Translations under genes and position numbers: made by a program
Notes under the pieces: model-generated
Told to the model about the DNA's origin: nothing
Database searches by the model: none
The model's input: only the letters and a program-made list of their open reading frames with translations
Part shown: piece after piece, positions 14,368 through 59,683 of the stretch
Numbering within the stretch: the first letter of the stretch is position 1
How the letters are laid out: the number at the start of each line of letters is the position of its first letter
Assembly (NCBI GenBank): GCA_017550285.1
Contig: JAFZPP010000004.1
Location: forward strand, 1-64,000
Length of the DNA: 64,000 nucleotides
Direction of reading: 5' to 3'
DNA from: Oscillospiraceae bacterium
Lineage (GTDB): Bacteria > Bacillota > Clostridia > Oscillospirales > Ruminococcaceae

Positions 14368-14374
14368 CACAAGT

Positions 14375-14404: not shown

Positions 14405-14466
14405 CCGGGCAGTGCCCGGCTCCGTTTTTATCCTCATGCGGCGTTTTGTCTGCTTTTTTCGTATTG

Positions 14467-14496: not shown

Positions 14497-14501
14497 ATAA
14501 T
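14473..14501 (+). promoter_or_regulatory. nadBC promoter
   Basis: TTGAAC (14473-14478), 17 bases, TATAAT (14496-14501). The spacer is an inverted repeat, a plausible repressor site (NiaR-type control of nadBC is common in Firmicutes, but no match was tested). Confidence 0.7.
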
Positions 14502-14533
14502 ATAAATACTATACTTTCAAAGGAGCCATTCCT

Positions 14534-16854: not shown

Positions 16855-16996
16855 AGCATTCCGGCGGCGTCATGCGTATTTTGAGGTTCAGATGTTTCCG
16901 GCAGGCTTGTGTATAGGTTATCAGATTTGCGGGCAGCACCCGCAGGGATTGATCGAAAGCATTTCGGAGGCGCGGTGAAATACAGCGTACAAGTAT

Positions 16997-17014
16997 GTTA
17001 CAACATGTTGTGAC
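16997..17014. promoter_or_regulatory. 18-base near-perfect palindrome upstream of mutS2
   Basis: GTTACAACATGTTGTGAC is a palindrome broken at one base pair, 62 bases before the mutS2 start. No clear sigma-A promoter is seen beside it. Candidate operator. Confidence 0.45.
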
Positions 17015-17075
17015 GCAAGATATAAATGAGAACGAAAAATCATTACAACGACGGGCGGAACCCCGTGGAGACAAT

Positions 17076-23520: not shown

Positions 23521-23928
23521 AATCACACCTCCGGATACAGTCGGAACGGTTCGGATGCGCAGAGAAACAGATATCCCTGCAAGAATATTATAACATATAT
23601 GCATAAAAAGTGTAAGATGTAAAACGCTGAAATTGTAAAATCGTTTTTGTGCGTAACGTACAAAGCGGCTGAATTCTTAACATAATTTTCAGAAAACGAC
23701 GGTATCAGCAGGAAAAATACGGCTCTGCGCAATGTGACAAACAGTATAAGCGACAAGAAAATATACAAAAAGTTTTGCTTTTGTGATTAGGAATCTGCGG
23801 CATATGCCCTGGATTTTTATGCAAGCAAAACAAAGAATTTTCATCCGCTTGCCAAAGCAGACAGGGTTGTGCTATAATAAAAATTGTCCCGGTTTTTCGG
23901 GAAAATCGTGGGAAGGGAAACATATAAA
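23521..23928. other. divergent intergenic region between the two dockerin genes
   Basis: 408 AT-rich bases. A promoter for the rightward gene is at 23849-23878. On the minus strand a TATAAT box reads from 23592 to 23587, without a good -35 partner. I see no RNA gene or repeat in the rest. Confidence 0.5.
23849..23878 (+). promoter_or_regulatory. promoter of the LRR-dockerin gene
   Basis: TTGCCA (23849-23854), 18 bases, TATAAT (23873-23878). Confidence 0.7.
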
Positions 23929-44365: not shown

Positions 44366-45283
44366 TTAATCCCTCTGACTTTCTGCCTGCTGACCGCCGC
44401 TGCTGTCGATTGTGCCGAATTTGGAGAGCGGAGACAGTCGCAGCAAAACCCTGCCGACAATCTTATCCTCCGGAATCAGCCCGACCTCGGGGTGACGGCT
44501 GTCCTTGGAAATATGACGGTTGTCGCCGAGGACGAAGATATAGCCCTCCGGCACCGTCAGCGGGTATGTAAATGCGCGGTTATCGCGCTTGGTCAGCGTA
44601 TTTGTATAGGGCTCGTCGAGCGCTTTGCCGTCTACATAGACAATGCCCTCGTCAAAATCAATATTGACCTCCTGACCGGACTGTGCAATCAGGCGCTTGA
44701 CGATATCCTTGCCGACGCCCGGGCAGGCGGTCAGCTTGCCGTCCGGATCGAACAGATAAGCGGACTCGCTGTCGAGAATCAGGATATCACCGGTATCGTA
44801 ATGTCTGCCGATGCGCGAGACAAGCAGGCGGTCGGCGTCTTCCAGCGTCGGAACCATGGAATCGCCCTCGACATCCGCCGTGCAGATCAGATATGTGAAA
44901 ATCAGCATCACCGCAAAAATCGCGGTACAGACAGATTCCGCAAGGTCTGCTGCATCATACAGAAAGCTGCGGAGCGTGTATGCGGCTTCATCCTCTTTTG
45001 TGCCGTTCGTGATGACCGGAGTCGGTGTGACCGGAGCAGGCGTATCCGCAGCGGGCGCGTTTTGCTGCGGTCCGGATTCAGACGGTGTATCTGCGGGTGC
45101 GGCAGGGGATTCCTGCGGTGCGGTCTCAGGCTCTGAAATGCCCGCAGCATCCGTTGTGACCGGAGCAGGCGTATCCGCAGCGGGCGCATTTTGCTGCGGC
45201 GCGGATTCAGACGGCGTTTCGGTTTCCGCAACAGGCGCTGCCTGCTGCGGGTCTGTGGTCATCGGGGTGTCATTCGTCTCCAT
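44366..45283 (-). CDS. signal peptidase I with long Pro/Ala-rich cytoplasmic tail
   Basis: 305 aa. Residues 1-95 are a Pro/Ala/Glu/Thr-rich region with a tandem repeat (PQQNAPAADTPAPVT occurs twice). A single membrane anchor follows (about 118-136, TAIFAVMLIFTYLIC). The catalytic domain has Ser in EGDSMVPTL, Lys in IVKRLIA and the substrate box VLGDNRHISKDSR. It cleaves Sec signal peptides on the outer membrane face. This is the last of three tandem paralogues. The tail is about 80 residues longer than in its neighbours. Confidence 0.92.
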   Translation of the reverse strand: METNDTPMTTDPQQAAPVAETETPSESAPQQNAPAADTPAPVTTDAAGISEPETAPQESPAAPADTPSESGPQQNAPAADTPAPVTPTPVITNGTKEDEAAYTLRSFLYDAADLAESVCTAIFAVMLIFTYLICTADVEGDSMVPTLEDADRLLVSRIGRHYDTGDILILDSESAYLFDPDGKLTACPGVGKDIVKRLIAQSGQEVNIDFDEGIVYVDGKALDEPYTNTLTKRDNRAFTYPLTVPEGYIFVLGDNRHISKDSRHPEVGLIPEDKIVGRVLLRLSPLSKFGTIDSSGGQQAESQRD

Positions 45284-45323
45284 GCGGCATCGCCTCCGTT
45301 TCTTCCGTTACGCTGCGGCAGAC

Positions 45324-45968
45324 TCAGCCGTTCTGCGCACCGGTGCTGTCGATCTCTCCGAATTTTGAAAACGGCAGGATGCGGATCAGCACCTTGCCGA
45401 GAATATCCTTTCGCGGAACCAGTCCGACATAGCTGCTGCGGCTGTCCGAGGAGCCGTTGCGGTTGTCGCCGAGGACAAAAACATAGCCCTCCGGAATCGT
45501 CAGCGGATACTGCAATGCCCAGTCTTCATCATCAGTCGTCGGGGTGTTCGTATACGGCTCATCGAGTGCCTGACCGTCTACAAAGACGATGCCTGCTGCA
45601 AAGTCGATATCGACCGTCTGTCCCTCCTGTGCGATCAGCCGCTTGACAATGCGCTTCTCAAAGCCGCGCGTGGTCTGGATATTGCCTTCCTGATCCATGG
45701 GGTGACCTTCCCAGTTGTTGATGATCAGAATATCGCCGTTTTCATATTCGTCACTGAGACGCGATACGGCAAGACGGTCGCCGTCTGCAAGCGTCGGAAC
45801 CATTGAGGTGCCCTCGACCCTTGCGACACAGACCACAAATGTAAACAGGATAATGACAATGAAAACCGCACTTGCGACACATTCGACGATATCGAGCACA
45901 TCAGCGGCAAAATCTCCGAGCGTATACTGCTCTTCCTCCGGTTTCTGAATCGCTTGTTCAGTCTGCAT
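45324..45968 (-). CDS. signal peptidase I, second of three
   Basis: 214 aa; start at 45968 behind AAGGAG. A short cytoplasmic N-terminus, one membrane anchor (about 30-50), Ser in EGTSMVPTLADGD, Lys in IVKRLIAQEGQ and the box VLGDNRNGSSDSR. The catalytic half is closer to the third paralogue (44366) than to the first, notably ALDEPYTNT and SKFGEIDS. It lies 28 bases after the first paralogue. Confidence 0.92.
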   Translation of the reverse strand: MQTEQAIQKPEEEQYTLGDFAADVLDIVECVASAVFIVIILFTFVVCVARVEGTSMVPTLADGDRLAVSRLSDEYENGDILIINNWEGHPMDQEGNIQTTRGFEKRIVKRLIAQEGQTVDIDFAAGIVFVDGQALDEPYTNTPTTDDEDWALQYPLTIPEGYVFVLGDNRNGSSDSRSSYVGLVPRKDILGKVLIRILPFSKFGEIDSTGAQNG

Positions 45969-45996
45969 GGTAAATCTCCTTTTCAGTTGCTTCGGC

Positions 45997-46632
45997 TCAG
46001 AACAGGATCGCAAACCGGTCCTTCCAGCTTTCGGTCAGCTCGTCCTCGCGGTCATAGCGGAGCACGGCGGTGCCGTAGATATTCTCTACCGGAATCAGTC
46101 CGACGGCAGGATTGCGGCTGTCGGTGCTGTTGAGGCGGTTGTCGCCCATGACGAAAATATAGCCCTCCGGAACGGTCATCGGATAGGTGAAGGCGCCGTC
46201 CTCGCGGTAGGTCGGGTCGGCGGTATAAGGCTCGTCGAGCACCTTGCCGTCTACGGTGACAGTGCCCTCTGTCGTGTCAATGCGGACCTCCTGACCGGCA
46301 CGCGCAATGACGCGCTTGATCAGAACCTTGCCGAGCCCCGGCTGACGGACGACAACCGTCTGCTCCGGATCGACAAATCTGCCGCCCTCCTCATTGTTCA
46401 CGACAACAATATCGCCGTTATTGCCCTTGAGCGGCGTCAGGATCAGCAGCTTATCCATATTATAAAGCGTCGGATTCATCGAGCCGCCGTCTACCGTGAC
46501 GGGGCGGATGACAAACGCAAACAGCAGAATAAAGACGAATACCGAGATCGCGCCGGCTTCCAGTATATCCAGCACATCGCCGCAGAATTCCTCCAGCGAG
46601 TATTTTTTCTTTTCTGCCTCTTGCTCAGACAC
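45997..46632 (-). CDS. signal peptidase I, first of three
   Basis: 211 aa from a GTG at 46632, well spaced after GAGGGG; ATG 46710 would lie in rplS. It has one membrane anchor (about 30-50), Ser in DGGSMNPTLYNMD, Lys in LIKRVIARAGQ and the box VMGDNRLNSTDSR. It is the most diverged of the three, with VRQPG and YDREDELTESW at the C-terminus. It is 78 bases downstream of rplS, so it may share that promoter. Confidence 0.92.
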   Translation of the reverse strand: MSEQEAEKKKYSLEEFCGDVLDILEAGAISVFVFILLFAFVIRPVTVDGGSMNPTLYNMDKLLILTPLKGNNGDIVVVNNEEGGRFVDPEQTVVVRQPGLGKVLIKRVIARAGQEVRIDTTEGTVTVDGKVLDEPYTADPTYREDGAFTYPMTVPEGYIFVMGDNRLNSTDSRNPAVGLIPVENIYGTAVLRYDREDELTESWKDRFAILF

Positions 46633-46710
46633 AGAGCACCCCTCTTTTCTGCGATTTTTTCGGAGAAAAAGGAAAGGGGACCGCAAGAGTCCCCTTTCGC
46701 TTGTTTGCAA

Positions 46711-47058
46711 TCAACGAACCAGTCCCTTGACCTTTGCCGCTTTTCCGACTCTGCCGCGCAGATAGTAGAGCTTTGCTCTGCGCACAACGCCTTTGCGGAC
46801 GATCTCGACCTTGTCAACTGTCGGGCAGTGAACCGGGAAGACTCGCTCAATACCGACACCGTGTGCAACTCTGCGGACGGTGAAGGTCTCGCTGATGCCG
46901 CCGTGCTTCTTCGCAATGACAGTACCCTCAAAAACCTGAATACGGTACTTCTCTGCGGATTCGTAAATGCGGACGTGAACCTTGACGGTATCGCCGACAT
47001 TGATTTCCGGCACATCACTCTTCATGCTGGACTTGCTGATTTGCTCCAAAGCGTTCAT
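46711..47058 (-). CDS. rplS: 50S ribosomal protein L19
   Basis: 115 aa; start at 47058 behind [46 protein letters not shown] and [17 protein letters not shown] are the L19 family blocks. It sits at the 30S-50S interface. It heads the block of signal peptidases, rbgA and rnhB. The leader is about 220 bases. Confidence 0.97.
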
Positions 47059-47282
47059 TTGGGATTCCTCCTTGATTTGTTTACGGATGTTCATACATTG
47101 CAGCACAGGGAAAATCCCGAACCTTTCAACAGCCGCTCAGCGCTTTTTCTGAGAGGCAAATGCAGCGGACCACCCATTTGTCAGAATGTTTTGTTTCCTG
47201 CGGAAGCTGCGGAAATCCGCCTGCTGCCGGAGAAAACGCATTTTGACCTCGCCCTACAAGTACAGGCGGATATTCAAATGCT
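47059..47282 (-). promoter_or_regulatory. rplS leader region
   Basis: About 220 untranslated bases between the inferred start and rplS. L19 leaders that bind ribosomal protein are known in Firmicutes. Here GC-rich complementary segments are present around 47200-47240, but I cannot confirm the known fold. Confidence 0.35.
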
Positions 47283-48026: not shown

Positions 48027-48055
48027 TTGACAATTTTCTGAAGATTTGATATAAT
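48027..48055 (+). promoter_or_regulatory. promoter of the dual-permease transport operon
   Basis: TTGACA (48027-48032), 17 bases, TATAAT (48050-48055): both boxes are perfect consensus. The transcript would start near 48062. No cre site or other operator palindrome was recognised. Confidence 0.9.
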
Positions 48056-48151
48056 ATAGTATTGTAGGATATTGTGGCACATTCGTGCTTCTATCAATCG
48101 GATGCTTCCGGCAGAATCCGCAGGAATGCCGGAATGAAAGGCGGAGATACC

Positions 48152-51043
48152 GTGAACAGAACGAATCGAATCCGGCGCTTGACCGCTTCGGCTGCCGCTG
48201 CCGTCATGACAGCCGTCTGCTGCCTGCCGCTCTGTGCTGCGGCAGAGGAGAATGCTGCTGCGGCGGATGATCTCTATACGCTGCGTTTTGAACGCGAAAC
48301 CAGCTACAGCGACTATTATGATATGCATATCGGCGAAAAGCGCCCCGCAGCCGAGGTCCGCATTGCCGGCATTGACTATGCCGATGCAAAGGACGGCAGC
48401 TTCTCTGTCGGGACGCTCGGCGGCAGGGCGGAGGTTCTTGTCTGGGACAGCGCCGAGGGTGAGCTGACCTATGAGGTCGATGTGCCCGAGAGCGGCATCT
48501 ACTGCATGCAGCTTTCCTATTATGCCATGGAGTCGCCCTCGAATCAGGTTGAATTTTCGCTTGCCGTGGACGGCGAACTGCCGTTTGAATCGGCTTCGAG
48601 AATCTGCCTCAACAAGATTTTCGTCAACCGCACCGCGATCCGCACCGATTCGCGCGGCAATCAGGTGCGCCCTTCCCAGATCGAACAGCCGGACTGGCAG
48701 CAGAAGTACCTCTATGATGAGGACGGGCTCTTCAATGATCCGCTGATCTTCTCGCTCGAAAAGGGAAAGCATACGCTGACGCTCAGCGGCATTAAAGCGT
48801 CGGTCGGCATTGAGTATCTGCGGCTCTGTCAGCCGGAGGGGACGGGGCAGTATCAGGCACCTGCGCAGAGTGAGCTGGACAGCACGCCCTCGCTGCTCTA
48901 CCGTATGGAGGGCGAGGCGGCAGCGCTGAAATCCTCCTCGACGCTCTATCCGGCATACGATAACAATGCCTATACTGTTTCGCCGTCGGATCCGGTCAAA
49001 ATGGTCTATAATACAATCGGCGGCGCAAACTGGGATCAGGCAGGGCAGACCATTACATGGGAAATCCCTGCGGATGCGCTCTCCGGCGACGGCTGGTATA
49101 AGCTCGGCATCAAGGCACGGCAGAATGTCATGCGCGGCTTCTACTCGAACCGCAGAGTGCTCATCGACGGAGAACTGCCGAATGATGCTTTCAGTCAGGT
49201 CAAATTTTACTATGACAATGACTGGAGCCTGACGCCCGTCGGCAGAGAGGGTGAGACGGCATATGTTTATCTCACCGCAGGCAGGGCGCATACCGTGACG
49301 CTGGAAGCCATGCCCGGCGAGATCGGCGAATATATGCGGCGGCTCGAAAGCACCGTCACCGATCTGAATACCTGCTATAAGCAGATTCTCATGATTACCG
49401 GACCGAATCCGGATAAATACAATGACTACTATGTCGAGGAGAGCATCCCGACGCTGATTCAGGATTTCATGCGGCTCTCGCAGCAGCTCAAGGATGCGCA
49501 GAACGGCATCGAAAAGCTCTCCGGCACGCTCGGCTCTGAGGCGGCGGCGCTCCAGAGAATGTATGTCATTCTCGATAAGTGCATTGAAAAGCCCAGCCGC
49601 ATTCCGAATTATGTCACGCAGATCAAGGATAATATTTCGACAATCTCGACCTTCATCTGCGATTACCGCGATCAGCCGCTGGAGGTCGATTATATCGAGC
49701 TGGCATCGCCCGATCAGGAGTTCGCCTCGCTGAAATCCAGCTTCTTCAAGCAGCTCGGCTTCCGCTTCAAGGCGTTCCTCGGATCCTTTACCGAGGATTA
49801 TACCACGCTCTCCGATATCGACGCCGACCGCGAGGACGTTATCAATGTCTGGGTCAATCTCGGCAGAGATCAGGCACTCGTTGTCAAGGAGCTGGTCGAG
49901 AATGAATTTGCGCAGCTGCATCCCGAGAATCCGGTCTCGGTCAATCTGGTTGTCGGCGGTGTCGTCGAAGCGACGCTTGCCGGAAAGGGTCCCGATGTCG
50001 CACTGTTCCTCGGCGGTGAATTCCCTGTCAACCTTGCATGCCGCGGGCTGCTCGTCGATATGAAGCAGTTTCCGGATTTCAATGAAACCGTCAAAAACTA
50101 TCAGCATGACGCGACGGTGCAGTACAGCTATGACAACGGCTGCTACGGTATGCCGCTGACACAGAACTGGACGATGATGTTCTACCGCACCGATATCCTC
50201 ACGGAGCTCGGTCTGACCGAGCTGCCGCGGACATGGGATGCGCTGATTGATACACTCCCTGCACTCCAGCGCAATCATCTCGGTGTCGGTCTGATTCTGC
50301 CCTCGACGAATGTTGCGGCGGCGACCGAAGCAGGTCATACCTATGCGACACTGCTCCTTCAGCAGGGACTCAATTACTATAATCCCGAGCAGACAAAGAC
50401 GCAGTTCGATTCCGTTCCGGCAATCCAGTGCTTTGAAAAGTGGACGGATTTCTACCGCGATTATAAATTCGTGCAGACCTATGACGCCTACAGCTATTTC
50501 CGCACGGGACAGTATCCGATTGTGATTGCAAACTACAGCTTTGCAAATCAGCTTTCGGTCGCGGCACCGGAAATCAAGGGGCTCTGGGATTTCACCGTCA
50601 TGCCCGGCACCATGCAGCAGGACGGCACGATCAATCATGCGTCCAATTCCGGCGGCTCCGGCGCGGTGATTTTCAATAAGGTCAAAAACAAGGAGGCTGC
50701 ATGGGAATTCGTCAAGTGGTTCTGCTCGACGGATGTGCAGACCGAATACGGCGCAAACCTTGAGGGCCTGCTCGGACAAATGGGTCGCTATGAGGCGGCG
50801 AATGTCGAGGCACTCAAGCAGCTCAACTGGTCGGGCGCGGAAATGGATGTGCTGCTGGCACAGTGGGATGCGCTGACCGAGATCCCCGTGCTGCCCTCGT
50901 CCTATGCCGTGACCAGAAACATCATGAACGCATTTCGTGAAACCGTCAATTCCAATGAAAATCCGCGCGATACGCTCATGTACTATAACAGCGATATGAA
51001 CGATGAGATCCGCAGAAAGCGCGAAAATCTCGGGCTTAGCTGA
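48152..51043 (+). CDS. composite extracellular solute-binding protein with carbohydrate-binding-like modules
   Basis: 963 aa from GTG 48152 (5 bases after GGCGGAG); ATG 48134 is an alternative. The signal peptide is about residues 1-31 and has no convincing lipobox (LPLC is a poor match). Two beta-rich modules of the CBM6/35 galactose-binding type follow (about 45-225 and 250-410). Then come a helical segment (about 415-510) and a family 1 solute-binding domain (about 570-940: VINVWVNLGRDQALVVKELV, GKGPDVALFLGGE, GCYGMPLTQNWTMMFYR). The usual family size is about 430, so this is more than double. It should deliver an oligosaccharide to the permeases that follow. Confidence 0.82.
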   Translation: MNRTNRIRRLTASAAAAVMTAVCCLPLCAAAEENAAAADDLYTLRFERETSYSDYYDMHIGEKRPAAEVRIAGIDYADAKDGSFSVGTLGGRAEVLVWDSAEGELTYEVDVPESGIYCMQLSYYAMESPSNQVEFSLAVDGELPFESASRICLNKIFVNRTAIRTDSRGNQVRPSQIEQPDWQQKYLYDEDGLFNDPLIFSLEKGKHTLTLSGIKASVGIEYLRLCQPEGTGQYQAPAQSELDSTPSLLYRMEGEAAALKSSSTLYPAYDNNAYTVSPSDPVKMVYNTIGGANWDQAGQTITWEIPADALSGDGWYKLGIKARQNVMRGFYSNRRVLIDGELPNDAFSQVKFYYDNDWSLTPVGREGETAYVYLTAGRAHTVTLEAMPGEIGEYMRRLESTVTDLNTCYKQILMITGPNPDKYNDYYVEESIPTLIQDFMRLSQQLKDAQNGIEKLSGTLGSEAAALQRMYVILDKCIEKPSRIPNYVTQIKDNISTISTFICDYRDQPLEVDYIELASPDQEFASLKSSFFKQLGFRFKAFLGSFTEDYTTLSDIDADREDVINVWVNLGRDQALVVKELVENEFAQLHPENPVSVNLVVGGVVEATLAGKGPDVALFLGGEFPVNLACRGLLVDMKQFPDFNETVKNYQHDATVQYSYDNGCYGMPLTQNWTMMFYRTDILTELGLTELPRTWDALIDTLPALQRNHLGVGLILPSTNVAAATEAGHTYATLLLQQGLNYYNPEQTKTQFDSVPAIQCFEKWTDFYRDYKFVQTYDAYSYFRTGQYPIVIANYSFANQLSVAAPEIKGLWDFTVMPGTMQQDGTINHASNSGGSGAVIFNKVKNKEAAWEFVKWFCSTDVQTEYGANLEGLLGQMGRYEAANVEALKQLNWSGAEMDVLLAQWDALTEIPVLPSSYAVTRNIMNAFRETVNSNENPRDTLMYYNSDMNDEIRRKRENLGLS

Positions 51044-51070
51044 ATGCAGTAATAAAGGAGGGTTCCTCTT

Positions 51071-52009
51071 TTGGATAAGGAACAGATCGGTGTCAGAACC
51101 AAACAGGAACAGCGGCGGCAGCTCCTGCTGCGCATCAAACAGAATAAAGAAGCCTATCTCATGCTGGCACCTTTTATGATCGTATTTCTGATTTTTACGG
51201 TCATTCCGGTTATCATGTCGCTGCCGATCGGTCTGACGGATTTCGACATGGTCAAATATCCGCCGACATGGGTCGGACTCAGCAATTTCTATAACCTGTT
51301 TCTCAATGACAGCATTTTTATCAAGGCAATCCGTGTGACACTGGTGTTTGCTGTGTTTACGGGCCCGCTGAGCTACTTCCTGAGCTTCATGCTCGCGTGG
51401 CTCATCAATGAGATGAATCAGACGCTCAAGGTCATCTTCACGCTGATCTTCTATGCGCCGTCCATGGCATCCGGCGTCTATGCAGTCTGGCAGCTCATCT
51501 TCTCCGGTGACAGCTACGGCATTGCAAACTCCACACTGATGAACCTCGGCATCACAACCTCTGCGATGCAATGGCTGACCGATTCCAAGTATATCCTGAC
51601 GGTCGTCATTATTGTGCAGCTCTGGGTCTCCATGGGCGCAGGCTTTCTTGCCATGCGCGCAGGCTTCCAGAATATCGACAAGGCACAGTATGAAGCCGGT
51701 GCGATTGAGGGTATCCGCAACCGCTGGCAGGAGCTGATTTACATTACAATCCCCGGCATGGGCCCCTCGCTGATGTTTGCAGCAGTCATGCAGATCGTGT
51801 CCGCATTTACGGCGGATATTGTCGCGCGCAATCTCGTCGGTTTCCCGAGCACGGATTATGCCGCACATACGATCATGACACATGCCTTCGATTACGGCTG
51901 GATCCGCTACGAAATGGGCTATGCCTCTGCAATCTGCATGATCCTGTTTATTGCAATGTATATTGCAAATAAGCTCATCAGCAGAGTGCTCGGCAAATAT
52001 ATGGACTGA
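51071..52009 (+). CDS. sugar ABC permease, MalF-like, pair 1
   Basis: 312 aa from a TTG at 51071, 9 bases after AAAGGAGG; no ATG is better placed. It has six membrane helices and the EAA loop QYEAGAIEGIRNRWQELIYITIPGMGPS that docks on the ATPase. It forms a heterodimer with the next gene product. No ATPase gene is in the operon, so a shared MsmX-like ATPase encoded elsewhere is likely. Confidence 0.88.
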   Translation: MDKEQIGVRTKQEQRRQLLLRIKQNKEAYLMLAPFMIVFLIFTVIPVIMSLPIGLTDFDMVKYPPTWVGLSNFYNLFLNDSIFIKAIRVTLVFAVFTGPLSYFLSFMLAWLINEMNQTLKVIFTLIFYAPSMASGVYAVWQLIFSGDSYGIANSTLMNLGITTSAMQWLTDSKYILTVVIIVQLWVSMGAGFLAMRAGFQNIDKAQYEAGAIEGIRNRWQELIYITIPGMGPSLMFAAVMQIVSAFTADIVARNLVGFPSTDYAAHTIMTHAFDYGWIRYEMGYASAICMILFIAMYIANKLISRVLGKYMD

Positions 52010-52025
52010 GGAGGCAGGCAGGATT

Positions 52026-52928
52026 ATGAGTCATTCTTCCGCAAAGACAAAGCAGAAGCCGGATGTCCGGAAGCTCAAGGCTTCCAACCGGCGCGCCGGC
52101 AGAAAAATCGGCGGCTCTATCGCTATTTTCCTTTTTCTGCTGATTCTCGGTCTGTTTATGGTGCTCCCGATCTGGCTGATGATCGTCAACTCGGTCAAGC
52201 CGGTCAACGAAATGTTTATCTTCCCGCCGAAGTGGTATACGCTGAATCCGACGCTCGACAATTTCAAGGATACCTACCGTGTCCTCGGGCAGATGTGGGT
52301 GCCGTTCTCGCGCTATGTCTTCAACAGCATCTTCGTGACGGTCGCCGTGACCGTTTTGCAGTGCGTATTCGCTTCCATGGCGGCATTCTGTCTGGCAAAG
52401 GTCAATTTCCCGGGCAATAAGATCATCAATGCGGTTATCGTGCTCGCGCTGCTCTATAACAGCAATGTCATCTACCTGATGCAGTATATGGTCATGGCGG
52501 AGCTCAATATGATCAACCGCATGTCGGCGCTGATTCTGCCGGCGGTCGCATCGTCCATGGGTCTTTACCTGATGCGGCAGTCGATGACCTCCGTGCCGGA
52601 CGCAATGATCGAAGCGGCAAAGGTGGACGGTGCAAATCTCTTTACGATCTGCTGGCGCATCGTGATTCCGAATCAGAAGCCGGCGCTCATGACCATGGCG
52701 ATCTTCGCGTTTCAGGGCGCGTGGAATATCACGGGCGGCAGCGTCGTCTACGATGAATCGCTCAAAACACTCCCGACTGTCATTCAGCAGGCTGCCTCTG
52801 CCGGTATCTCGCGGCAGGGCGTTACAATGGCTGCGGCGGTCATCCTCTTTGTTCCGCCGGTACTGTTCTTTATTCTCGCACAGAGTCAGGTCATGGAGAC
52901 CATGGCACATTCCGGCATCAAGGATTGA
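52026..52928 (+). CDS. sugar ABC permease, MalG-like, pair 1
   Basis: 300 aa; start at 52026 after GGAGGCAGGCAGG. A basic N-terminus of 35 residues precedes six membrane helices. The EAA loop is DAMIEAAKVDGANLFTICWRIVIPNQKPA. MalG-type C-terminal features are present. It is 16 bases after its partner. Confidence 0.9.
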   Translation: MSHSSAKTKQKPDVRKLKASNRRAGRKIGGSIAIFLFLLILGLFMVLPIWLMIVNSVKPVNEMFIFPPKWYTLNPTLDNFKDTYRVLGQMWVPFSRYVFNSIFVTVAVTVLQCVFASMAAFCLAKVNFPGNKIINAVIVLALLYNSNVIYLMQYMVMAELNMINRMSALILPAVASSMGLYLMRQSMTSVPDAMIEAAKVDGANLFTICWRIVIPNQKPALMTMAIFAFQGAWNITGGSVVYDESLKTLPTVIQQAASAGISRQGVTMAAAVILFVPPVLFFILAQSQVMETMAHSGIKD

Positions 52929-52966
52929 GATACGGTCCGGAGCATGCAGAAAGGATGAGGAATTAC

Positions 52967-54517
52967 GTGAAAACGAATGCAAGGCGCAGGCTGATGCAGT
53001 CCGCGGCGGCAGTGCTGTCGCTGCTGTGTACGGCATCGGTTCTGATGCTTCCGGCATCGGCGGATGAACCCTACGATGTCTATAACTATAATTATCTCGG
53101 CGAAGCGGTGCCCTCGCAGGCAGGCTATCTCGCGGAGCGCTCGGTTTCGGGGCTTGACCTCGGGACAACGGCATTCAATGCGCCGGGCGACCTTTTCAAG
53201 GATGAGAAGGATCAGTTTTATCTCGTCGATTCCGGCAACAACCGGATTCTCAGAATCAACAGCGAATTTGATGAGATTTTGCAGATCTATGATACATTCA
53301 CCATGCCGGACGGCTCGCAGACAAAGCTCAAAAATCCGAAGGGCGTGTTCATTTCGCCGGATACCGGTCTGATGTATATTGCAGACAATGAAAATGCGCG
53401 TGCGCTGGTCTGTGAACAGGACGGCAGCGTCGTGATGGAGATCACAAAGCCGGAATCGGCGGTCTACGATCAGCAGCTGACCTTCCTGCCGCAGAAAATC
53501 CTCTGCGACAATGCGGGCAATATCTACATCGTGCTGAACAATACGACCAAGGGCGCGGCGATGTTCGGTGCCGACGGCAGCTTCATCGGCTACTACGGCG
53601 CGAATGCCGTCGCTGCGACTGCGACCGTCATTGCAAATCATTTCTGGAATGCAATCGCATCCGAGGAGGAAAAGCGCTACCGCTCCAGAAGCACGCCGAC
53701 TGCCTTCGATAATTTCGATATCGACACGGTCAAGGGCTTTATCTATACCTCGACATCCTCCGGCTCGACCGATACCGATATCGTCAAGAAGGTCAATCCG
53801 GAAGGCTATAATCTGTTCAGCTATATGTCGAATTACACATGGGGTGATCTGTTCTCCACATGGTATTCCGGCACGAGCTATAAAACCAAGATCGTCGATA
53901 TTGACATCGGCGACGACGGCTCGATCAACTGCCTCGATGCGACGACCGGCAGAGTGTTCCAGTATGACAAGGAAGCCGATCTGCTCTTTATTATGGGTAC
54001 GACCGGCGATCAGGTCGGCGCGTTCACGCAGGGCAATGTCGCTGCCGTGGAGACAAAGGGCGCGGGCTGTGAGAATATCTATGTGCTCGATGCCGGCAAG
54101 GGGACGGTCACGGTCTTCGGTCAGACCGTTTTCGGCAGCATTGTGCACGATGCAACAAAGCTCTATAACGGCGGCTATTATGAGGAAGCGCTTGAGCCGT
54201 GGCTGGAGGTCCTGAAGCGCGACGGCAACTACCGCAGAGCCTATCTCGGCATCTCCAGCGCGTACTACAACATGGGCAGATACAAGGATTCTATGGAGTA
54301 CGCCAAGAAGGCGGATGCCTCCGGACGCTATAACCGCGCCTTCGAGCGCTACCGTTCGCAGTGGCTGCGGCAGCATCTGACACAGCTTCTGATCGGCATC
54401 GTACTGATCATTGCCGGAATCTATATACTGAAATTTTATCTGCGCAGACAGCAGAAAAAGGCGCTCGATACCGCAAAAGCGCCGGAACATCAAACGGAAG
54501 GGGGAACGGCATCATGA
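52967..54517 (+). CDS. NHL-type beta-propeller / TPR protein with C-terminal membrane anchor
   Basis: 516 aa from GTG 52967, 6 bases after GGATGAGG; ATG 52955 directly abuts the upstream AAAGG. The signal peptide is residues 1-32 (ending PASA). NHL-like blades span about 60-390 (FKDEKDQFYLVDSGNNRILRI, NPKGVFISPDTGLMYIADNENARALV). Two TPR units cover about 405-460 (YNGGYYEEALEPWLEVL, YYNMGRYKDSMEYAKKA). One membrane helix follows at about 471-492, then a basic cytoplasmic tail. The propeller lies outside the membrane, where it may bind glycan or a partner. Such proteins recur beside YIP1 and DUF5696 genes in Clostridia (from memory). Confidence 0.78.
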   Translation: MKTNARRRLMQSAAAVLSLLCTASVLMLPASADEPYDVYNYNYLGEAVPSQAGYLAERSVSGLDLGTTAFNAPGDLFKDEKDQFYLVDSGNNRILRINSEFDEILQIYDTFTMPDGSQTKLKNPKGVFISPDTGLMYIADNENARALVCEQDGSVVMEITKPESAVYDQQLTFLPQKILCDNAGNIYIVLNNTTKGAAMFGADGSFIGYYGANAVAATATVIANHFWNAIASEEEKRYRSRSTPTAFDNFDIDTVKGFIYTSTSSGSTDTDIVKKVNPEGYNLFSYMSNYTWGDLFSTWYSGTSYKTKIVDIDIGDDGSINCLDATTGRVFQYDKEADLLFIMGTTGDQVGAFTQGNVAAVETKGAGCENIYVLDAGKGTVTVFGQTVFGSIVHDATKLYNGGYYEEALEPWLEVLKRDGNYRRAYLGISSAYYNMGRYKDSMEYAKKADASGRYNRAFERYRSQWLRQHLTQLLIGIVLIIAGIYILKFYLRRQQKKALDTAKAPEHQTEGGTAS

Positions 54518-55143
54518 TGGATCTGACACAGCCGCAGTGGGTAAAGCATGTTGTCTTTCATCCCTTTGAGGGCTTTGAGGATCTGCGCTGGAAAAAAGGC
54601 GGCACGCTCAAATATACCGCGGTCATCATTGCGGCGCTGTTCATTGCACTGATTGCGTTTGACCGCTGGTGCGGCTTCCAGTTCCGCCCGCTGCCCGATG
54701 CGATGTTTTCCGTTGTGCCGTATATCATGCGCTCGGTCATCTATTTCCTTGCATGGGTGCTCGGAAACTGGGCTGTCTGCACGCTGCTCGACGGCGAGGG
54801 CACCATGAAGAATATCGCAATCTACAGCTCCTATGCGCTGATTCCCTATATCGTGCAGATGTTTACGCAGGTGGTTCTGTCGCATGTGCTCGTGCGCGCC
54901 GAGGGCGTATTCTTTGATACGGTCTACTATATCGGCATTATCTGGACGGCGCTGCTGCTGTTCAATGCGATCAAGGCGGTGCATCAGTATACCTTCACAA
55001 AGACCGTCGCCGCGATTGTGCTGACGCTCTGCGCCATGCTGATTATTCTGTTTCTGGCGGTGCTGTTCCTTTCGCTGTTCCAGAAGGTTTATGTATTCTT
55101 CTACTCGCTGTATACAGAGATTCTGTATCGCGTGAGAGTCTGA
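54514..55143 (+). CDS. YIP1-like integral membrane protein
   Basis: 209 aa; ATG 54514 overlaps the preceding stop (ATGA). A soluble start (VKHVVFHPFEGFEDLRWKKGG, typical of bacterial Yip1-domain proteins) precedes five membrane helices with TMKNIAIYSSYALIPYI between them. Eukaryotic YIP1 proteins act in membrane traffic; the bacterial role is unknown. Coupled translation with the propeller protein suggests a complex. Confidence 0.7.
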   Translation: MMDLTQPQWVKHVVFHPFEGFEDLRWKKGGTLKYTAVIIAALFIALIAFDRWCGFQFRPLPDAMFSVVPYIMRSVIYFLAWVLGNWAVCTLLDGEGTMKNIAIYSSYALIPYIVQMFTQVVLSHVLVRAEGVFFDTVYYIGIIWTALLLFNAIKAVHQYTFTKTVAAIVLTLCAMLIILFLAVLFLSLFQKVYVFFYSLYTEILYRVRV

Positions 55144-55158
55144 GGGGCGGTGATCGGA

Positions 55159-57531
55159 TTGCAGAAAAAACGTAATATACTGTGCTGCATGCTCGCAGCC
55201 GCAATGATGCTCCCGACCGCCGCAATGCCTGTTTCGGCAGAGCCGGAGGAGACCGAAGCAGCCGCCGGAGCGGAATCCGCTGCGGAGAGTGAATCCGCTG
55301 CGCAGGAAGCGCCGGACTGGACAGAACGCTCTGACAAGGATGTCTTTGCGAAGATGCGCAAGGTTGCCGAAAATGAAAAGCTCGAGTTCTGGGCTTGGGA
55401 TGAATCAAAGCTCGATGAGGACAATGACGAGCAGCCCGAGGATTTGTTCGCACTGGTCAATAAGGCGAACGGTTATGTCTGGTGGACGTCGCCGGTCAAT
55501 GCGGGCGGCGATGCCGTGGCATCTCCGGTGCTGCGTGCGGAGCTGCGCTCCGGCGTTGTGCTGACGGCAGCGCAGATCCTGGAACGCTCGACGGTCAATG
55601 CACGCTCGGGCGATACGCTCAAAACCGGCATCACCTTTTCCGATATCAAAAACGGCGTCAAGGTCACCTATTTCTTCCGCAAGACCGGCATTAAGATTCC
55701 TGTTTCCTATGTGCTCGGCGCGGATTATCTCGAGGTCAGCGTCGATACCTCCGGCATCACCGAAAAGCATGATGCTTCGGATGAAAAGCCGGTGCTCGCG
55801 CAGTCGCTTGCGATCCTCAATGCATTCGGCGCGGCGGATGACAGGGAGGAGGGGTATTTCGTCATCCCCGACGGCAGCGGCGCTGTCATCAACTTCAACA
55901 ATCAGAAGTATGCCGCGAAAACCTACAGTCAGATGATTTATGATACCGACAAGACAGCCGTCCCGAAGACGAAGGGTCCGGTCGTCGAGGGCGTATCGCT
56001 CCCGATGTACGGCATCTGCAAGGGCGAAAATGCGATGCTCGCGGTTGCCTCTGAGGGCGACGGCAGCTGCATGCTCTGCGCGGATGTCAGCGGCATCGGA
56101 CAGTCGAATACTTCCTATAACCGCTGCTATTTCAAATTCGTGCTGCGCTCTGCCGACCAGTATTATCTCGGCAGCGATCAGCTCAATCCGCTCGATGTCT
56201 ACGAGAAAAATCTCACGCACCGCAATTTGCAGGTCAGATATTATCCGCTGGCGGCGTCCGATCAGATCAACGAAGATCACGGAAGTACGCTGGACTATGT
56301 CGATATCGCGGCGCGGTACCGGCAGTATCTGCTGGAGGAAAAGCATGTGCCGAAAACTGCACAGGCAGATCAGGCAAAGCTCTATATCGACCTCTACGGC
56401 GGCTGCATGAAGCAGCGGAATGTACTCGGATTTCCCGTGTTCATGAAAACCTCCATGACCTCATACAAGGAAATGCAGGAGATTTTGCAGCAGCTTTCCG
56501 ATGCCGGTGCGGACAGTCTGACGGTGTCCGTCAACCGCTGGACCGATGCGGGCATCAGCGGCAAGGTCGATTATAAGGCAAAGCCCTCCGGTACGCTCGG
56601 CGGCAGCTCGGACTTCAAAAAGCTGACCGCATACATGGACGGCAGCGGGATCGAATGGTATCCGACCGTGACAAATACCGCTTTTTATTCCGGCAACGGC
56701 TACTGGGCGCTGAATGATACGGCGGTGCGCGTTTCCGGCTCGTTTGCGCGAATCGTCGATTATGAGCGCGCTTACGGCGTACCCTACGGCGAAAAGAAAA
56801 CGATGTCGCTGCTCTCGCCGCATGTGTTCCCGACGCTCTATGACAAGCTGGCAAAGAACTATGCAGGCGCAGGCTTTCAGCGCGTCAGCCTCGGCGGACT
56901 TTCCTCCGTGCTCTACGGCGACTACGGCAAGAAATCCGGCACCTCGCGCGATCAGATGATGCAGACCGTTGAGGAAAGCCTGCAAACGCTGCATGCATCC
57001 GTCGGGGCGGTGCTCTCTGAGGACCCGAATGCCTATGTGCTGCCCTATACCGATACGATCACCGATCTGCCGCTCTATTCCTCGGGCTTCAATATCTTTG
57101 ACGGTGACATTCCGCTCTACCAGCTCGTAATGCACGGCGTCATGCCGTATTCGACGAAGGCGGTCAACGGCTCTGCCGATGCGGAGCGGCTTGTCATGCT
57201 CGCGCTGGCTTCCGGCAGCAATCTGCGCTTTGATATGCTCGCCGCAGAGACCAGTGAACTCAAGGATACCGATTTCGATGTCTATTATTATGCGGATTCC
57301 GATTACTGGATTGACAATGCGGCAGAGTATTATCTCTTTACAAAGGACATTCTGAAAAAAATCAGCGATTCGCCGATCATCAGCTATCAGCGCGACGGCG
57401 ACCGCATCACGACGAAATATGCAAACGGGACAGAGACCGTCGTCGATTTGCAGGAATGCTCCGTGACGGCGGACGGTCAGACCAGATATCTCAAAGACTA
57501 TGCAGAGGAAGGAGCTGTGGTGTTTGAATGA
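55159..57531 (+). CDS. DUF5696-type secreted protein, possible hydrolase
   Basis: 790 aa from TTG 55159, about 10 bases after GAGGGG; GTG 55150 is too close to that site. The signal peptide is about residues 1-27, followed by an acidic Ala/Glu-rich stretch (about 28-50). A beta-rich region (about 60-390) includes YFVIPDGSGAVINFNN. An alpha/beta region follows (about 410-700: GADSLTVSVNRWTDAG, KKLTAYMDGSGIEWYPTV, GFQRVSLGGLSSVLYGDYG, AYVLPYTDTITDLPLYSSGF), then a beta-rich C-terminus. This order resembles retaining glycoside hydrolases with a beta-sandwich plus TIM barrel (GH101/GH36-like), but no family signature is certain. It overlaps the next gene by 4 bases. Confidence 0.7.
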   Translation: MQKKRNILCCMLAAAMMLPTAAMPVSAEPEETEAAAGAESAAESESAAQEAPDWTERSDKDVFAKMRKVAENEKLEFWAWDESKLDEDNDEQPEDLFALVNKANGYVWWTSPVNAGGDAVASPVLRAELRSGVVLTAAQILERSTVNARSGDTLKTGITFSDIKNGVKVTYFFRKTGIKIPVSYVLGADYLEVSVDTSGITEKHDASDEKPVLAQSLAILNAFGAADDREEGYFVIPDGSGAVINFNNQKYAAKTYSQMIYDTDKTAVPKTKGPVVEGVSLPMYGICKGENAMLAVASEGDGSCMLCADVSGIGQSNTSYNRCYFKFVLRSADQYYLGSDQLNPLDVYEKNLTHRNLQVRYYPLAASDQINEDHGSTLDYVDIAARYRQYLLEEKHVPKTAQADQAKLYIDLYGGCMKQRNVLGFPVFMKTSMTSYKEMQEILQQLSDAGADSLTVSVNRWTDAGISGKVDYKAKPSGTLGGSSDFKKLTAYMDGSGIEWYPTVTNTAFYSGNGYWALNDTAVRVSGSFARIVDYERAYGVPYGEKKTMSLLSPHVFPTLYDKLAKNYAGAGFQRVSLGGLSSVLYGDYGKKSGTSRDQMMQTVEESLQTLHASVGAVLSEDPNAYVLPYTDTITDLPLYSSGFNIFDGDIPLYQLVMHGVMPYSTKAVNGSADAERLVMLALASGSNLRFDMLAAETSELKDTDFDVYYYADSDYWIDNAAEYYLFTKDILKKISDSPIISYQRDGDRITTKYANGTETVVDLQECSVTADGQTRYLKDYAEEGAVVFE

Positions 57532-58448
57532 AAATTCCATATGAACGCAGAAAAGCGCTCTACGGCTACGGCTTCATCTCTGTCTGGCTGGTCGGTACGG
57601 TTCTGTGGTTCCTGATTCCGCTGCTGGAATCGCTCTGCTACTGCTTTATGGACAATACGCAGCTGAAACCGGATGTCGGCGGCATGCACAAGGTCTGGCT
57701 CTGGAATGCCGGTCAGAACTGGCTCACCAATTTCAAATTTGCGTTTGCTGCCGATCCGCAGTATAAGGAAGCGCTGGTTTCCGTTCTGAAGGATACCGCA
57801 ATCACCACGCCGATGATTCTGATTTTCTCGCTGTTTATCGCGGTCATTCTGAATCAGGAGTTCAAGGGCAGGGGATTTGCAAGAGCGATTTTCTTCCTGC
57901 CGGTCATTATCGCAACGGGTCCCGTTTACAACATTATCAGCGGCAACATTGCGAGTACCGGTGCAGACAGCGGCGCACAGTTCTCGACGCTCTTTGAGAC
58001 CGATATCGTTGATAAGCTGCTGGAATTCCTCGGCGTCATGAATATCAGCGCGCAGCTCAGCGACGTCATCAATTCCGTTGTCACCAATATCTTCGGACTC
58101 GTCTGGAGCAGCGGCATTCAGATTCTCATTTTCCTGGCGGCGCTCCAGAATATCCCTGTCTCTGCAAAGGAAGCGGCTTCGATGGAAGGCGCGACGGCGT
58201 GGGAATATTTCTGGAAGATCACGCTGCCCTATGTCAGCCCGATGATTCTTGCAAATTTCATCTACACGGTCATTGATTCGTTCACGAAGACCGATAATGC
58301 TGTCATGGCGCGCGTTCTCTCCAAGCAGCTCGACTGGGATTATGCCTATGCGGCATCTATGGCGTGGAGCTATTTCGCAATCGTGATGGTCGTTGTCGGT
58401 ATCGTGACCGCGATCATCAACAAGTTTATCTTCTACGAAGTAGAATAA
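57528..58448 (+). CDS. sugar ABC permease, MalF-like, pair 2
   Basis: 306 aa; ATG 57528 overlaps the DUF5696 stop (ATGA). It has six membrane helices and the EAA loop SAKEAASMEGATAWEYFWKITLPYVSP. It is clearly diverged from pair 1 in the loops (a long insert GNIASTGADSGAQFS after helix 3), so this is not a recent duplication. Confidence 0.88.
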   Translation: MKIPYERRKALYGYGFISVWLVGTVLWFLIPLLESLCYCFMDNTQLKPDVGGMHKVWLWNAGQNWLTNFKFAFAADPQYKEALVSVLKDTAITTPMILIFSLFIAVILNQEFKGRGFARAIFFLPVIIATGPVYNIISGNIASTGADSGAQFSTLFETDIVDKLLEFLGVMNISAQLSDVINSVVTNIFGLVWSSGIQILIFLAALQNIPVSAKEAASMEGATAWEYFWKITLPYVSPMILANFIYTVIDSFTKTDNAVMARVLSKQLDWDYAYAASMAWSYFAIVMVVVGIVTAIINKFIFYEVE

Positions 58449-58460
58449 GGGGGTGCGGAT

Positions 58461-59591
58461 ATGGATTTGGAAAAACAGATAACCCCCGAAACGGAAGAAG
58501 CTGTCCCTGCGCGTCCGGAGAGCGGACGTCCTGCGGTGCCGCAGCTGCCGGAAGGCTATATTCCGCCGAGCGCCGTGCCCGATGCGCATGAAGCACATGA
58601 GGTCGGCGACGGCATGAGCAAAAAGGAAGCCATGAAAATCCGGATGCAGCATATGAATAAACAGGAGATTGCCTATCTCCGGCGCAGACGCATCTTTGAG
58701 AAGTGCTGGCCGGTGTTCCGGTTCCTGATTCTGTTCGGACTCGGCTTTGTCATCCTGACGCCGCTGATGTTCATGATCTCCTACGGCTTCCGCGAGAATA
58801 CCGACATGAATGACCCGACGATCATCTGGATTCCGCGGCATCTGACGCTGCGCATCATGAAGCAGACGATCAATGCTATGGGTCTGACGGCGGCGAAGAA
58901 CAATCCGCTTGTGAATACGCTGGTGCTCAATATCGGCTGCTCGCTCTGTCAGGTTGTTACATGCGCGATCACCGGCTACGGCTTTGCACGGTTCAAATTC
59001 AAGGGCAGAGACCTGCTCTTCGGTATTGTCATTCTGATGATTCTCGTCCCGACGCAGATTATTTCGATTCCGCTTTACAGCACGTTCCGGAATTTCCTGT
59101 TCGGGCATGTGAACCTGATTGACAATAAGCTCGTGATGTATCTGCCGGCGCTGACCGCGAACGGTATCCGTGCCGGTCTGATGATCTTCATTTTCCGGCA
59201 GTTCTTCCGCGGACTGCCGAAGGAGCTCGAGGATGCGGCATATCTGGACGGCTGCGGTCCGTTCATGACCTTCCTGCGTGTCATGGTGCCGAATGCGGGC
59301 TCATCGTTCCTGACTGTGTTCCTGTTTTCGATTGTCTGGTACTGGAATGATTATTATGTCGCAAGCGCGTTCTTTACAAATACGCGGACGATCTCGCTGG
59401 TGCTGAAAAATCTCGACGGCGTGCTGAACATTGCAATCTTCAATAATGCAAATGCAAATGTCAGCGCAAGAGAGAAGATTGTCTGGCTGGAAGCCGGCTG
59501 TCTGATTTCGATTACGCCGATGCTGATTCTGTATGCACTGCTGCAAAAGCATTTCACAGAGGGCATCGAGCGTTCCGGTATTGTCGGCTAA
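58461..59591 (+). CDS. sugar ABC permease, MalG-like, pair 2, with N-terminal extension
   Basis: 376 aa; start behind AAGGGGGTGCGG. The first 85 residues are a hydrophilic Pro/Glu-rich cytoplasmic extension (TPETEEAVPARPESGRPAVP) with a charged helix, not found in pair 1. Six membrane helices and the EAA loop ELEDAAYLDGCGPFMTFLRVMVPNAGSS follow. It is the last gene of the operon; a perfect-stem terminator lies 47 bases on. Confidence 0.88.
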   Translation: MDLEKQITPETEEAVPARPESGRPAVPQLPEGYIPPSAVPDAHEAHEVGDGMSKKEAMKIRMQHMNKQEIAYLRRRRIFEKCWPVFRFLILFGLGFVILTPLMFMISYGFRENTDMNDPTIIWIPRHLTLRIMKQTINAMGLTAAKNNPLVNTLVLNIGCSLCQVVTCAITGYGFARFKFKGRDLLFGIVILMILVPTQIISIPLYSTFRNFLFGHVNLIDNKLVMYLPALTANGIRAGLMIFIFRQFFRGLPKELEDAAYLDGCGPFMTFLRVMVPNAGSSFLTVFLFSIVWYWNDYYVASAFFTNTRTISLVLKNLDGVLNIAIFNNANANVSAREKIVWLEAGCLISITPMLILYALLQKHFTEGIERSGIVG

Positions 59592-59637
59592 GAAAGGCGG
59601 AGCCGGGTTCAGAAAAATACCTATATAGAAAAATTAT

Positions 59638-59683
59638 GCCATAGTATTTCGGATATGTTGTCGGAAATACTATGGCGTTTCTA
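59638..59683 (+). terminator. terminator of the transport operon
   Basis: GCCATAGTATTTC (59638-59650) pairs perfectly with GAAATACTATGGC (59664-59676); GTTTCTATT follows. Confidence 0.8.

Follow-up and report, generated by a model that had tools for sequence, protein, structure and literature searches.

An eight-gene operon joining two CUT1 permease pairs with a glycosidase-related DUF5696 protein: a candidate glycan capture-and-import system

Operon Architecture

In the window, i.e., the whole stretch of 64,000 nucleotides analysed, from a Ruminococcus relative living in the gut, the ORF list places eight open reading frames on one shared strand (plus) between positions 48152 and 59591. They are preceded on the same strand by an extended -10 sigma-70 consensus promoter (TTGACA-17-TATAAT with TGn, 48027..48055), which is the only 12/12 match of the promoter scan in the 16 kb covered. 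Downstream, a terminator-like hairpin (59638..59676, plus strand) folds with a 13-bp stem at -27.0 kcal/mol and is followed by GTTTCTATT; it is missing from the terminator scan list, probably because its loop exceeds the limit of 8 set in that scan. The initial annotation, made from the sequence without database searches, had described an eight-gene operon bracketed by one perfect-consensus promoter and one terminator, and these features bear out that layout. Its four-base couplings are likewise present as ATGA overlaps between the propeller and YIP1 genes (54514-54517) and between DUF5696 and the permease gene F2 (57528-57531). A second ATG at 54517 offers a possible alternative start for YIP1.

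Of 77 distinct operon starts, 43 have a perfect 12/12 promoter; in the rest of the same loci (3124 kb, both strands) there are 61. A consensus promoter of this kind suggests strong expression with little regulation, which would suit a core nutrient system.

Solute-Binding Protein, Permeases and ATPase

The first gene, SBP1 (48152..51043, plus strand), encodes a predicted signal peptide, an N-terminal part of about 560 residues with a CBM35-like sequence and a helical stretch, and a CUT1 solute-binding domain, as assigned from the ORF, Pfam and profiles. Its start is taken as the GTG at 48152, after AAAGGCGGAG, where the profile match of the genome search also begins. Pfam assigns the protein to SBP_bac_1 (3e-25), and the closest solved relative of the solute-binding domain is Lin1841 (1.7e-34), with CbpB-type proteins at 1.1e-18. 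While these oligosaccharide-binding proteins are among its nearest solved relatives, SBP1 differs from them by the roughly 560 additional N-terminal residues. The CBM35-like assignment stems from the family: 14 of 34 SBP1 family members match CBM_35 at E<=0.1, with 9.1e-8 as the best value, and the SBP1 profile matches chain 5x7g (1.7e-9), while Pfam returns no CBM match for the window SBP1 alone. By eye, neither SBP1 nor DUF5696 of the window shows a lipobox; across the survey, one occurs in 2 of 60 SBP-class frames and 10 of 73 DUF5696 frames.

Two permease pairs are encoded on the plus strand, F1 (51071..52009; MalF/UgpA-like, UgpA match 2.8e-15) with G1 (52026..52928; MalG/UgpE-like) upstream, and the second MalF-like F2 (57528..58448) with the second MalG-like G2 (58461..59591) downstream. 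All four display an EAA-type loop by eye. In the Pfam scan of the window, F2 and G2 score above the BPD_transp_1 cut-off, G1 just below it and F1 gives no match; in the whole-genome search, all four pass. The permease tree separates the four types: a split with support 0.997 sets all 57 F1 sequences apart, F2 (57/57, 0.999) and G2 (57/57, 0.973) each form a group, and all 57 G1 sequences fall together. In this tree, F1G1 and F2G2 represent two permease lineages, each specific to the module.

Neither an ATPase nor a regulator is found inside the operon among the eight ORFs and their Pfam matches, in agreement with the initial reading. The absence of the ATPase is not odd: the genome search found one MalK-type ATPase outside the operon (OB_MalK match, G000:C26), which matches MsmX at 6.9e-111 and keeps three of four MsmX contact residues (D77, R104 and E110, with K154 replaced by Q), its first residues being lost to a contig end. 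As an MsmX-like ATPase is encoded elsewhere, an operon lacking one is ordinary. CUT1 importers of the MalFGK2/Msm/Ugp type with a shared MsmX/MsmK ATPase offer the same combination of a solute-binding protein with MalF-like and MalG-like permeases carrying EAA-type loops, and likewise have their ATPase encoded elsewhere. The present operon departs from them in its two dedicated permease pairs, in the long CBM35-like N-terminal part of its solute-binding protein and in three additional conserved genes (propeller/TPR, YIP1 and DUF5696).

Conservation of the Module

Of the 80 named loci from Ruminococcus and relatives, 68 have all eight parts in this order, the other 12 being loci cut on the missing side, and a near-identical order recurs in scattered members across one bacterial phylum. 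We compared 63 DUF5696 neighbourhoods from outside the genus, representing 46 genomes (some further matches, e.g., G325, G196, G263 and G380, lie outside this set). The propeller, YIP1 and a downstream permease pair 2 are each present in 61 of them and the large binding protein in 50. The middle genes are thus conserved together with the transporters, which upholds the earlier proposal of a dedicated unit with conserved partners.

Co-occurrence follows the same pattern. DUF5696 and SBP1 are found together in 37 of 398 genomes; all 37 genomes with strong DUF5696 matches contain SBP1, and 37 of the 40 SBP1 genomes contain DUF5696, the three others having SBP1 on contigs of 3.1-4.3 kb. Within the genus, 26 of 30 genomes (own included) carry DUF5696, and the remaining four are 58-82% complete. 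Module copy number differs between genomes, with DUF5696 copy numbers being lower bounds, as at most three candidates were scored per genome. Three seemingly unlinked SBP1 loci (L234, L235, L237) are parts of further modules. Reduced forms also occur: the modules at L154, L155, L156 and L158 lack SBP1-F1-G1 despite about 8 kb of room per side, and at L140 DUF5696 is present without F2-G2 and without a YIP1 match.

No flanking family within three genes of the module is common to more than 18 of the 81 loci (the 80 named ones and the window). The wide retention of gene order, together with flanks that are not shared, indicates that the operon is not a chance grouping; by gene content and order, the eight genes form a co-inherited unit.

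Propeller/TPR and YIP1 Proteins

The fourth gene (52955..54517, plus strand, start taken as the ATG at 52955) encodes a protein that combines an NHL beta-propeller with TPRs and has hydrophobic spans at both ends, one at each, as assigned from the ORF, Pfam and profiles. Its NHL score in Pfam is barely over the cut-off (23.3 vs 20 bits) and the TPRs remain under theirs. Its profile matches NHL propellers including that of the PknD sensor (1rwi, 5.7e-32), with TRIM/Thin propellers scoring higher. The overlapping gene (54514..55143, plus strand) encodes a YIP1-family membrane protein (PF04893, 2.4e-14; 54 bits vs a gathering score of 28.6), in which a conserved HPFEGFEDLRWKK stretch lies ahead of the first membrane span. 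The two are fused into a single protein in 34 of the 63 loci outside the genus and in 5 of the 80 named ones. That they belong together had been proposed initially; by comparison between loci, the natural fusions show the propeller and the YIP1 protein to work as a single unit. With sensor propellers such as PknD this unit has an NHL propeller and a membrane anchor in common, and presumably the outward placement; it differs in bearing TPRs and a YIP1 membrane domain and no kinase.

DUF5696 as a Glycosidase Relative

The DUF5696 gene (55150..57531, plus strand; PF18952, 5e-151) encodes a protein related to GH129 and GH101. In a single hhalign comparison, DUF5696 aligns with a GH129-like protein (L192) over 431 columns at 98.3% and E=1e-14, and L192 matches NagBb (5wzn) at 1.5e-129 and EngBF (2zxq) at 5.3e-6. 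At the profile level, DUF5696 is hence a distant relative of the GH129 alpha-N-acetylgalactosaminidase NagBb and the GH101 enzyme EngBF, and a shared fold follows from the sequence profiles. The earlier statement that no recognised glycoside hydrolase is present needs correcting in this respect, even though the protein probably lacks catalysis.

Relatives of L192 at E<=1e-10 were absent from 249 genomes of the phylum, so that the GH129 reference consists of this one protein and its alignment to NagBb. GH101, above the cut-off in 2 of the 249 genomes, was kept out of the final alignment. DUF6259 (13 proteins) served as second reference, its aligned Asp being assumed to be catalytic. In NagBb, we take D435 to be the nucleophile (number and role assumed, position taken from the alignment) and E478 to be the acid/base Glu. 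Gly582 of the window DUF5696 lies opposite both the nucleophile Asp in the GH129 reference and the corresponding Asp in DUF6259; among 84 DUF5696 proteins, 4 have D and 6 have E in this column. The acid/base column 624 holds E in the window protein (E in 19/84, D in 22/84) and varies between E, A, Q and S within the genus. The strict D582+E624 pair occurs in none of the 84 proteins. His and Asp residues altered in chain 5wzq, presumably metal ligands, are not kept either (of the 84 proteins, 0 have His and 1 has Asp at column 460, and 1 has His and 2 have Asp at column 462). DUF5696 thereby differs from NagBb and EngBF at the nucleophile and 5wzq-altered positions, and also in partnering an importer, those two being stand-alone enzymes.

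With no acid conserved at the nucleophile position, DUF5696 is probably devoid of catalysis and acts, in all likelihood, as a glycan receptor instead. Acids at or adjacent to that position in up to 36 of 84 proteins imply that some members could be enzymes, and 23 of the 84 carry them at or adjacent to both catalytic positions. Several polar residues are strongly conserved, namely R600 (82/84), N627 (74/84), Y629 (77/84), N673 (84/84) and D591 (70/84).

Glycan Context

Among the families listed, neighbours of the module in other lineages include GH26, GH42, GH31, GH30, GH95 and pectate lyase genes, a raw list, uncorrected for background, drawn from the first 25 of 76 matched families in a flank Pfam scan of 73 of 158 downstream and 1 of 78 upstream ORFs. 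Within the window, no GH gene was seen by eye beside the operon. The CBM35-like sequence in SBP1 relatives and the GH/PL neighbours elsewhere suggest a glycan context, and to that extent agree with the glycan role put forward initially.

Proposed Mechanism and Alternatives

We slightly favour a reading in which the eight genes encode one dedicated, strongly expressed glycan capture-and-import system feeding two dedicated CUT1 importers. The CBM35-like part of SBP1 would bind polysaccharide chains, while its solute-binding domain would pass oligosaccharides to F1G1. DUF5696, with a glycosidase fold and no catalytic nucleophile, would be an extracellular second glycan receptor handing its ligand to F2G2, whose gene overlaps its own. 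The membrane-anchored propeller/TPR/YIP1 unit may be the scaffold keeping the receptors near the permeases, both pairs of which a shared ATPase would drive. As to the substrate, our guess is an oligosaccharide freed from plant cell walls. More tentatively, and with considerable doubt, the system may be a Gram-positive equivalent, widely distributed, of the outer-membrane complexes for glycan uptake. In it, a retired GH129-type glycosidase turned glycan receptor and a CBM-bearing solute-binding protein would be held by a propeller/TPR/YIP1 membrane scaffold, which would join two different ABC permease pairs into a single machine powered by a shared ATPase.

An active DUF5696 would make the operon a cut-and-import locus, the protein being an extracellular enzyme, either a glycosidase or a transglycosidase, whose catalytic site is displaced or unusual. 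The 431-column GH129-type alignment, the conserved R600, N627, Y629, N673 and D591 and the 23 proteins with acids at or near both catalytic positions agree with this, yet we consider it unlikely, given Gly582 opposite the nucleophile Asp of both references, the absence of the strict D582+E624 pair, the loss of the 5wzq-altered positions and the variation of position 624 within one genus. The propeller/TPR/YIP1 unit, for its part, might be a transport sensor rather than a scaffold, measuring ligand or flux outside and gating the permeases. No conserved kinase, cyclase or DNA-binding partner accompanies it and the operon contains no transcription regulator, which makes this role improbable despite the profile match to PknD (below TRIM/Thin propellers), the TPRs and the conserved HPFEGFEDLRWKK stretch before the first YIP1 span.

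Envelope or exopolysaccharide turnover, i.e., retrieval of the cell's own surface glycan, would account for core status and the consensus promoter; it fits the near-universal presence in the genus, the 43 perfect promoters among 77 distinct starts and the lack of a GH neighbour seen by eye in the window. Set against the GH and pectate lyase genes adjoining modules in other lineages (raw list) and the differing copy number, it appears quite improbable to us. Two ordinary adjacent sugar importers with hitch-hiking genes could be imagined from the CUT1 type of every transport part. We rejected this reading, which is hardly credible in view of flanks shared by at most 18 of 81 loci while the inner genes are kept, the module-specific permease lineages, the 37/37 co-occurrence of SBP1 with DUF5696 and the propeller-YIP1 fusions.

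Accounts of sugar uptake in Gram-positive bacteria of gut and soil usually feature simple importers served by one solute-binding protein. If the capture-and-import reading is true, the module would be a separate way of capturing glycans among fibre degraders, Ruminococcus flavefaciens being one of them. For DUF5696, the profiles supply a fold and a role that can be tested; YIP1 and NHL/TPR proteins of bacteria gain a defined partner set. Among open-licence PMC papers, we found none that names DUF5696 (PF18952, IPR043751) and none that describes the system, nor one that places YIP1 or NHL-repeat proteins in it. Passages in a transcriptome study of Ruminococcus albus 7 (PMC4300822) name ABC operons induced on cellulose, none of which could be tied to this module.

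Solute-Binding Proteins in Other Lineages

The initial annotation had a single solute-binding protein serving both permease pairs. This is correct for the present clade and fails as a general description, since at least 27 of the 63 loci outside the genus have a second SBP-like protein, ordinary in size, close to the module; 'one SBP, two pairs' hence describes this clade and not the system everywhere. The count is a minimum, with L160 and L165 holding further SBP-like ORFs outside it. It derives from five queries, of which the L041 query has a Pfam result of its own and the L159 query is methyltransferase-like rather than an SBP, its two loci being matched by other queries too. This second SBP-like protein may be the true partner of F2G2, leaving DUF5696 another role.

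Operon layout and conservation

The operon comprises eight + strand genes (48152-59591) in the order SBP1-F1-G1-NHL/TPR-YIP1-DUF5696-F2-G2, encoding a large solute-binding protein (SBP1), a MalF/MalG-like permease pair (F1/G1), a propeller/TPR protein, a YIP1 protein, a DUF5696 protein and a second pair (F2/G2). A TTGACA-17-TATAAT promoter with TGn precedes it (48027-48055; 12/12 match, the sole such site in the 16 kb scanned), and a 13-bp hairpin stands at its end (59638-59676). The two four-base gene overlaps reported in the initial annotation, propeller with YIP1 and DUF5696 with the second permease pair, were confirmed in the window sequence. Of 77 distinct operon starts, 43 have a 12/12 promoter; counting both strands, 61 more lie elsewhere in these loci (3124 kb). 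The 16 leaders from the genus, two identical pairs included, conserve mainly the ribosome-binding site and a short upstream A/T-rich stretch. Because perfect promoters recur and little else is conserved in the leaders, transcription is suggested to be strong and little-regulated. Upstream, three signal-peptidase-I-like genes in tandem (44366-46710) adjoin a ribosomal-protein-L19-like gene (46711-47106), as read by eye.

The eight genes form a conserved unit in the DUF5696 locus sets compared, which overlap each other. DUF5696 was found in 26 of 30 genomes of the genus, own genome counted; the four others are 58-82% complete. All ten same-genus neighbourhoods (L031-L040) hold the eight genes, with G2 of L031 cut by a contig end. 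The whole order is kept in 68 of 80 named loci, which come from Ruminococcus flavefaciens, R. callidus and Oscillospiraceae and Clostridia MAGs. Of these 68, 62 have all eight genes separate (with SBP1 truncated in two), five carry a propeller-YIP1 fusion, scoring 216-314 bits against the YIP1 profile, and one has SBP1 split over two frames. In the remaining 12, the truncation lies on the side where genes are absent.

Outside the genus (63 neighbourhoods, 46 genomes), propeller and YIP1 each lie 5' of DUF5696 in 61/63, fused in 34 and with a separate YIP1 in 27 (one an 84-aa fragment at a contig end), and F2 and G2 lie 3' in 61/63. SBP1, F1 and G1 are near DUF5696 in 50, 51 and 52 of the 63, respectively. 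SBP1-F1-G1 stands 3' of G2 in six loci, and F2-G2 ahead of SBP1 in L137. Four loci (L154, L155, L156, L158) are without SBP1-F1-G1, with ~8 kb present on each side; L140 is without F2-G2 or a YIP1 match despite 8.5 kb of 3' sequence, and L048 and L133 begin at contig ends. Within three genes of the operon, no flanking family is common to more than 18 of 81 loci (the 80 named and the window).

A survey of 398 genomes from the phylum gave 37 with strong DUF5696 matches, 40 with SBP1 and 37 with both (Fisher 5e-49, kinship of genomes ignored), leaving out nine genomes with weak partial DUF5696 matches alone and five matching only the solute-binding domain of SBP1, at most at 334 bits. A contig end truncates SBP1 in G139 and G162, two of the 40, and the three SBP1-only genomes carry it on 3.1-4.3 kb contigs.

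Permeases and ATPase

The permeases are dedicated to the operon. Trees of 57 loci with all four permeases, together with other CUT1 permeases (three MalF-type, three MalG-type), place all 57 sequences on one side of a split for F1 (support 0.997), F2 (0.999) and G2 (0.973); the 57 G1 sequences group together with one fragment, itself belonging to a split G1. That each group stands apart argues that both pairs are ancient and separate components of the system. No fewer than 27 of the 63 non-genus loci encode, close to the module, an additional SBP-like protein of ordinary size, placed either 3' of G2 or 5' of SBP1; the 80 named loci yielded no such protein at E<=1e-15. In L153, four SBP2-type proteins follow the module in tandem (12100-18090). 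Outside the operon, the one further site in the own genome where an SBP_bac_8 protein sits beside related permeases is C9, in a classification that does not extend to permeases at C17, C38, C45 and C48 or to an SBP at C38.

The own genome yielded one OB_MalK protein, at C26, whose start is cut by the contig end and which has no permease 3' of it. It matches chain 7x0q ('ABC transporter related protein') at 2.8e-146 and MsmX (6yir) at 6.9e-111. Of the four MsmX residues tested in PMC7658222 (D77, R104, E110, K154), it keeps D77, R104 and E110, with Q in place of K154. Such an MsmX-like ATPase, as predicted from its sequence, provides an ordinary explanation for the lack of one in the operon.

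DUF5696 and its glycosidase relatives

DUF5696 is related to glycosidase families. L192, a GH129-like protein of the same-order genome G051, has Pfam matches to DUF5696 (5.9e-16), DUF6259 (5e-7) and GH101 (4.4e-6), and it matches NagBb, an enzyme of GH129, at 1.5e-129. It carries both NagBb catalytic residues, taken here to be D435 and E478, which agree with the numbering of the NagBb alignment. L192 bridges DUF5696, DUF6259 and GH101, and a search of 249 genomes from the phylum gave no relatives at E<=1e-10. With hhalign, L192 aligned to 84 distinct DUF5696 proteins with 98.3% probability (E=1e-14, single comparison, 431 columns), and 13 DUF6259 proteins aligned to the same set with 84.4% (E=7e-6, 186 columns).

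In both comparisons the Asp of the YLD motif aligns with Gly582 of the window protein. Column 582 holds D in 4/84 and E in 6/84, column 583 D in 24/84 and E in 5/84; an acid at either occurs in 36/84, joined by an acid at 624 or 625 in 23/84, and D582 with E624 in 0/84. These counts argue against the nucleophile being a family feature; the window protein lacks it, but some members may differ at this position. The positions altered in chain 5wzq, probably metal ligands, are not kept. Conservation lies instead at G484 and N673 (84/84 each), R600 (82/84), Y629 (77/84), W464 (75/84) and N627 (74/84). GH53 is weakly matched by 3/20 members. DUF5696 frames run to ~930-950 aa in L064, L073 and other R. 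flavefaciens-type loci, vs 760-800, and to at least 1887 aa in L234 (a module of G100), reaching the edge of the sequence examined.

SBP1, propeller and YIP1

SBP1 has ~560 residues N-terminal to its solute-binding domain, whose closest match is Lin1841 (1.7e-34). At E<=0.1, CBM_35 is matched by 14/34 family members and Golvesin_C by 21/34; the window SBP1 alone gave no CBM match in Pfam. Profile positions 300-399 match a cycloisomaltooligosaccharide glucanotransferase chain (1.7e-9) and 434-497 chain 8a3k (5.1e-8; by name a designed coiled coil). Read by eye, SBP1 would contain two CBM-like domains in a row.

The propeller profile matches designed Pizza propellers, TRIM/Thin NHL propellers and the PknD sensor, and the segment after it matches TPRs; Yip1 is matched by 13/29 family members. 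Hydropathy gives the window propeller protein one span at each end and YIP1 four. In the fused proteins, the C-terminal membrane span of the propeller continues into the YIP1 domain. A conserved HPFEGFEDLRWKK stretch, possibly a contact motif, lies 5' of the first YIP1 span (window 54560-54600, and homologues).

Proposed mechanism and surroundings

In the best-supported mechanism, SBP1 and DUF5696 would serve as two receptors, the propeller/TPR/YIP1 protein would form a membrane scaffold, and the two permease pairs would import, both powered by one shared ATPase. The comparisons show that the eight genes belong together, that propeller and YIP1 can be fused, that DUF5696 has glycosidase kin and that the permeases are dedicated; the receptor roles, the contacts between components and the substrate are inferred. 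The transport core is of an already known kind. No description of the eight-gene composition was found in the literature searched.

Among the matches listed for 73 non-genus 3' neighbours (E<=1e-8; raw counts) are GH26 (4), GH42 (3), GH31 (2), GH30, GH27, GH95, pectate lyase, SBP_bac_1 (10) and SBP_bac_8 (7). L160 has a GH35/GH42-type gene, and in 9/81 loci the module is followed by a protein family that resembles GH95 on inspection by eye. Two secreted proteins in the window (21565-23604, 23884-25914) show, by eye, Thr-rich linkers and C-terminal dockerin-like repeats, which suggest a cellulosome-type host and would fit a plant-fibre degrader.
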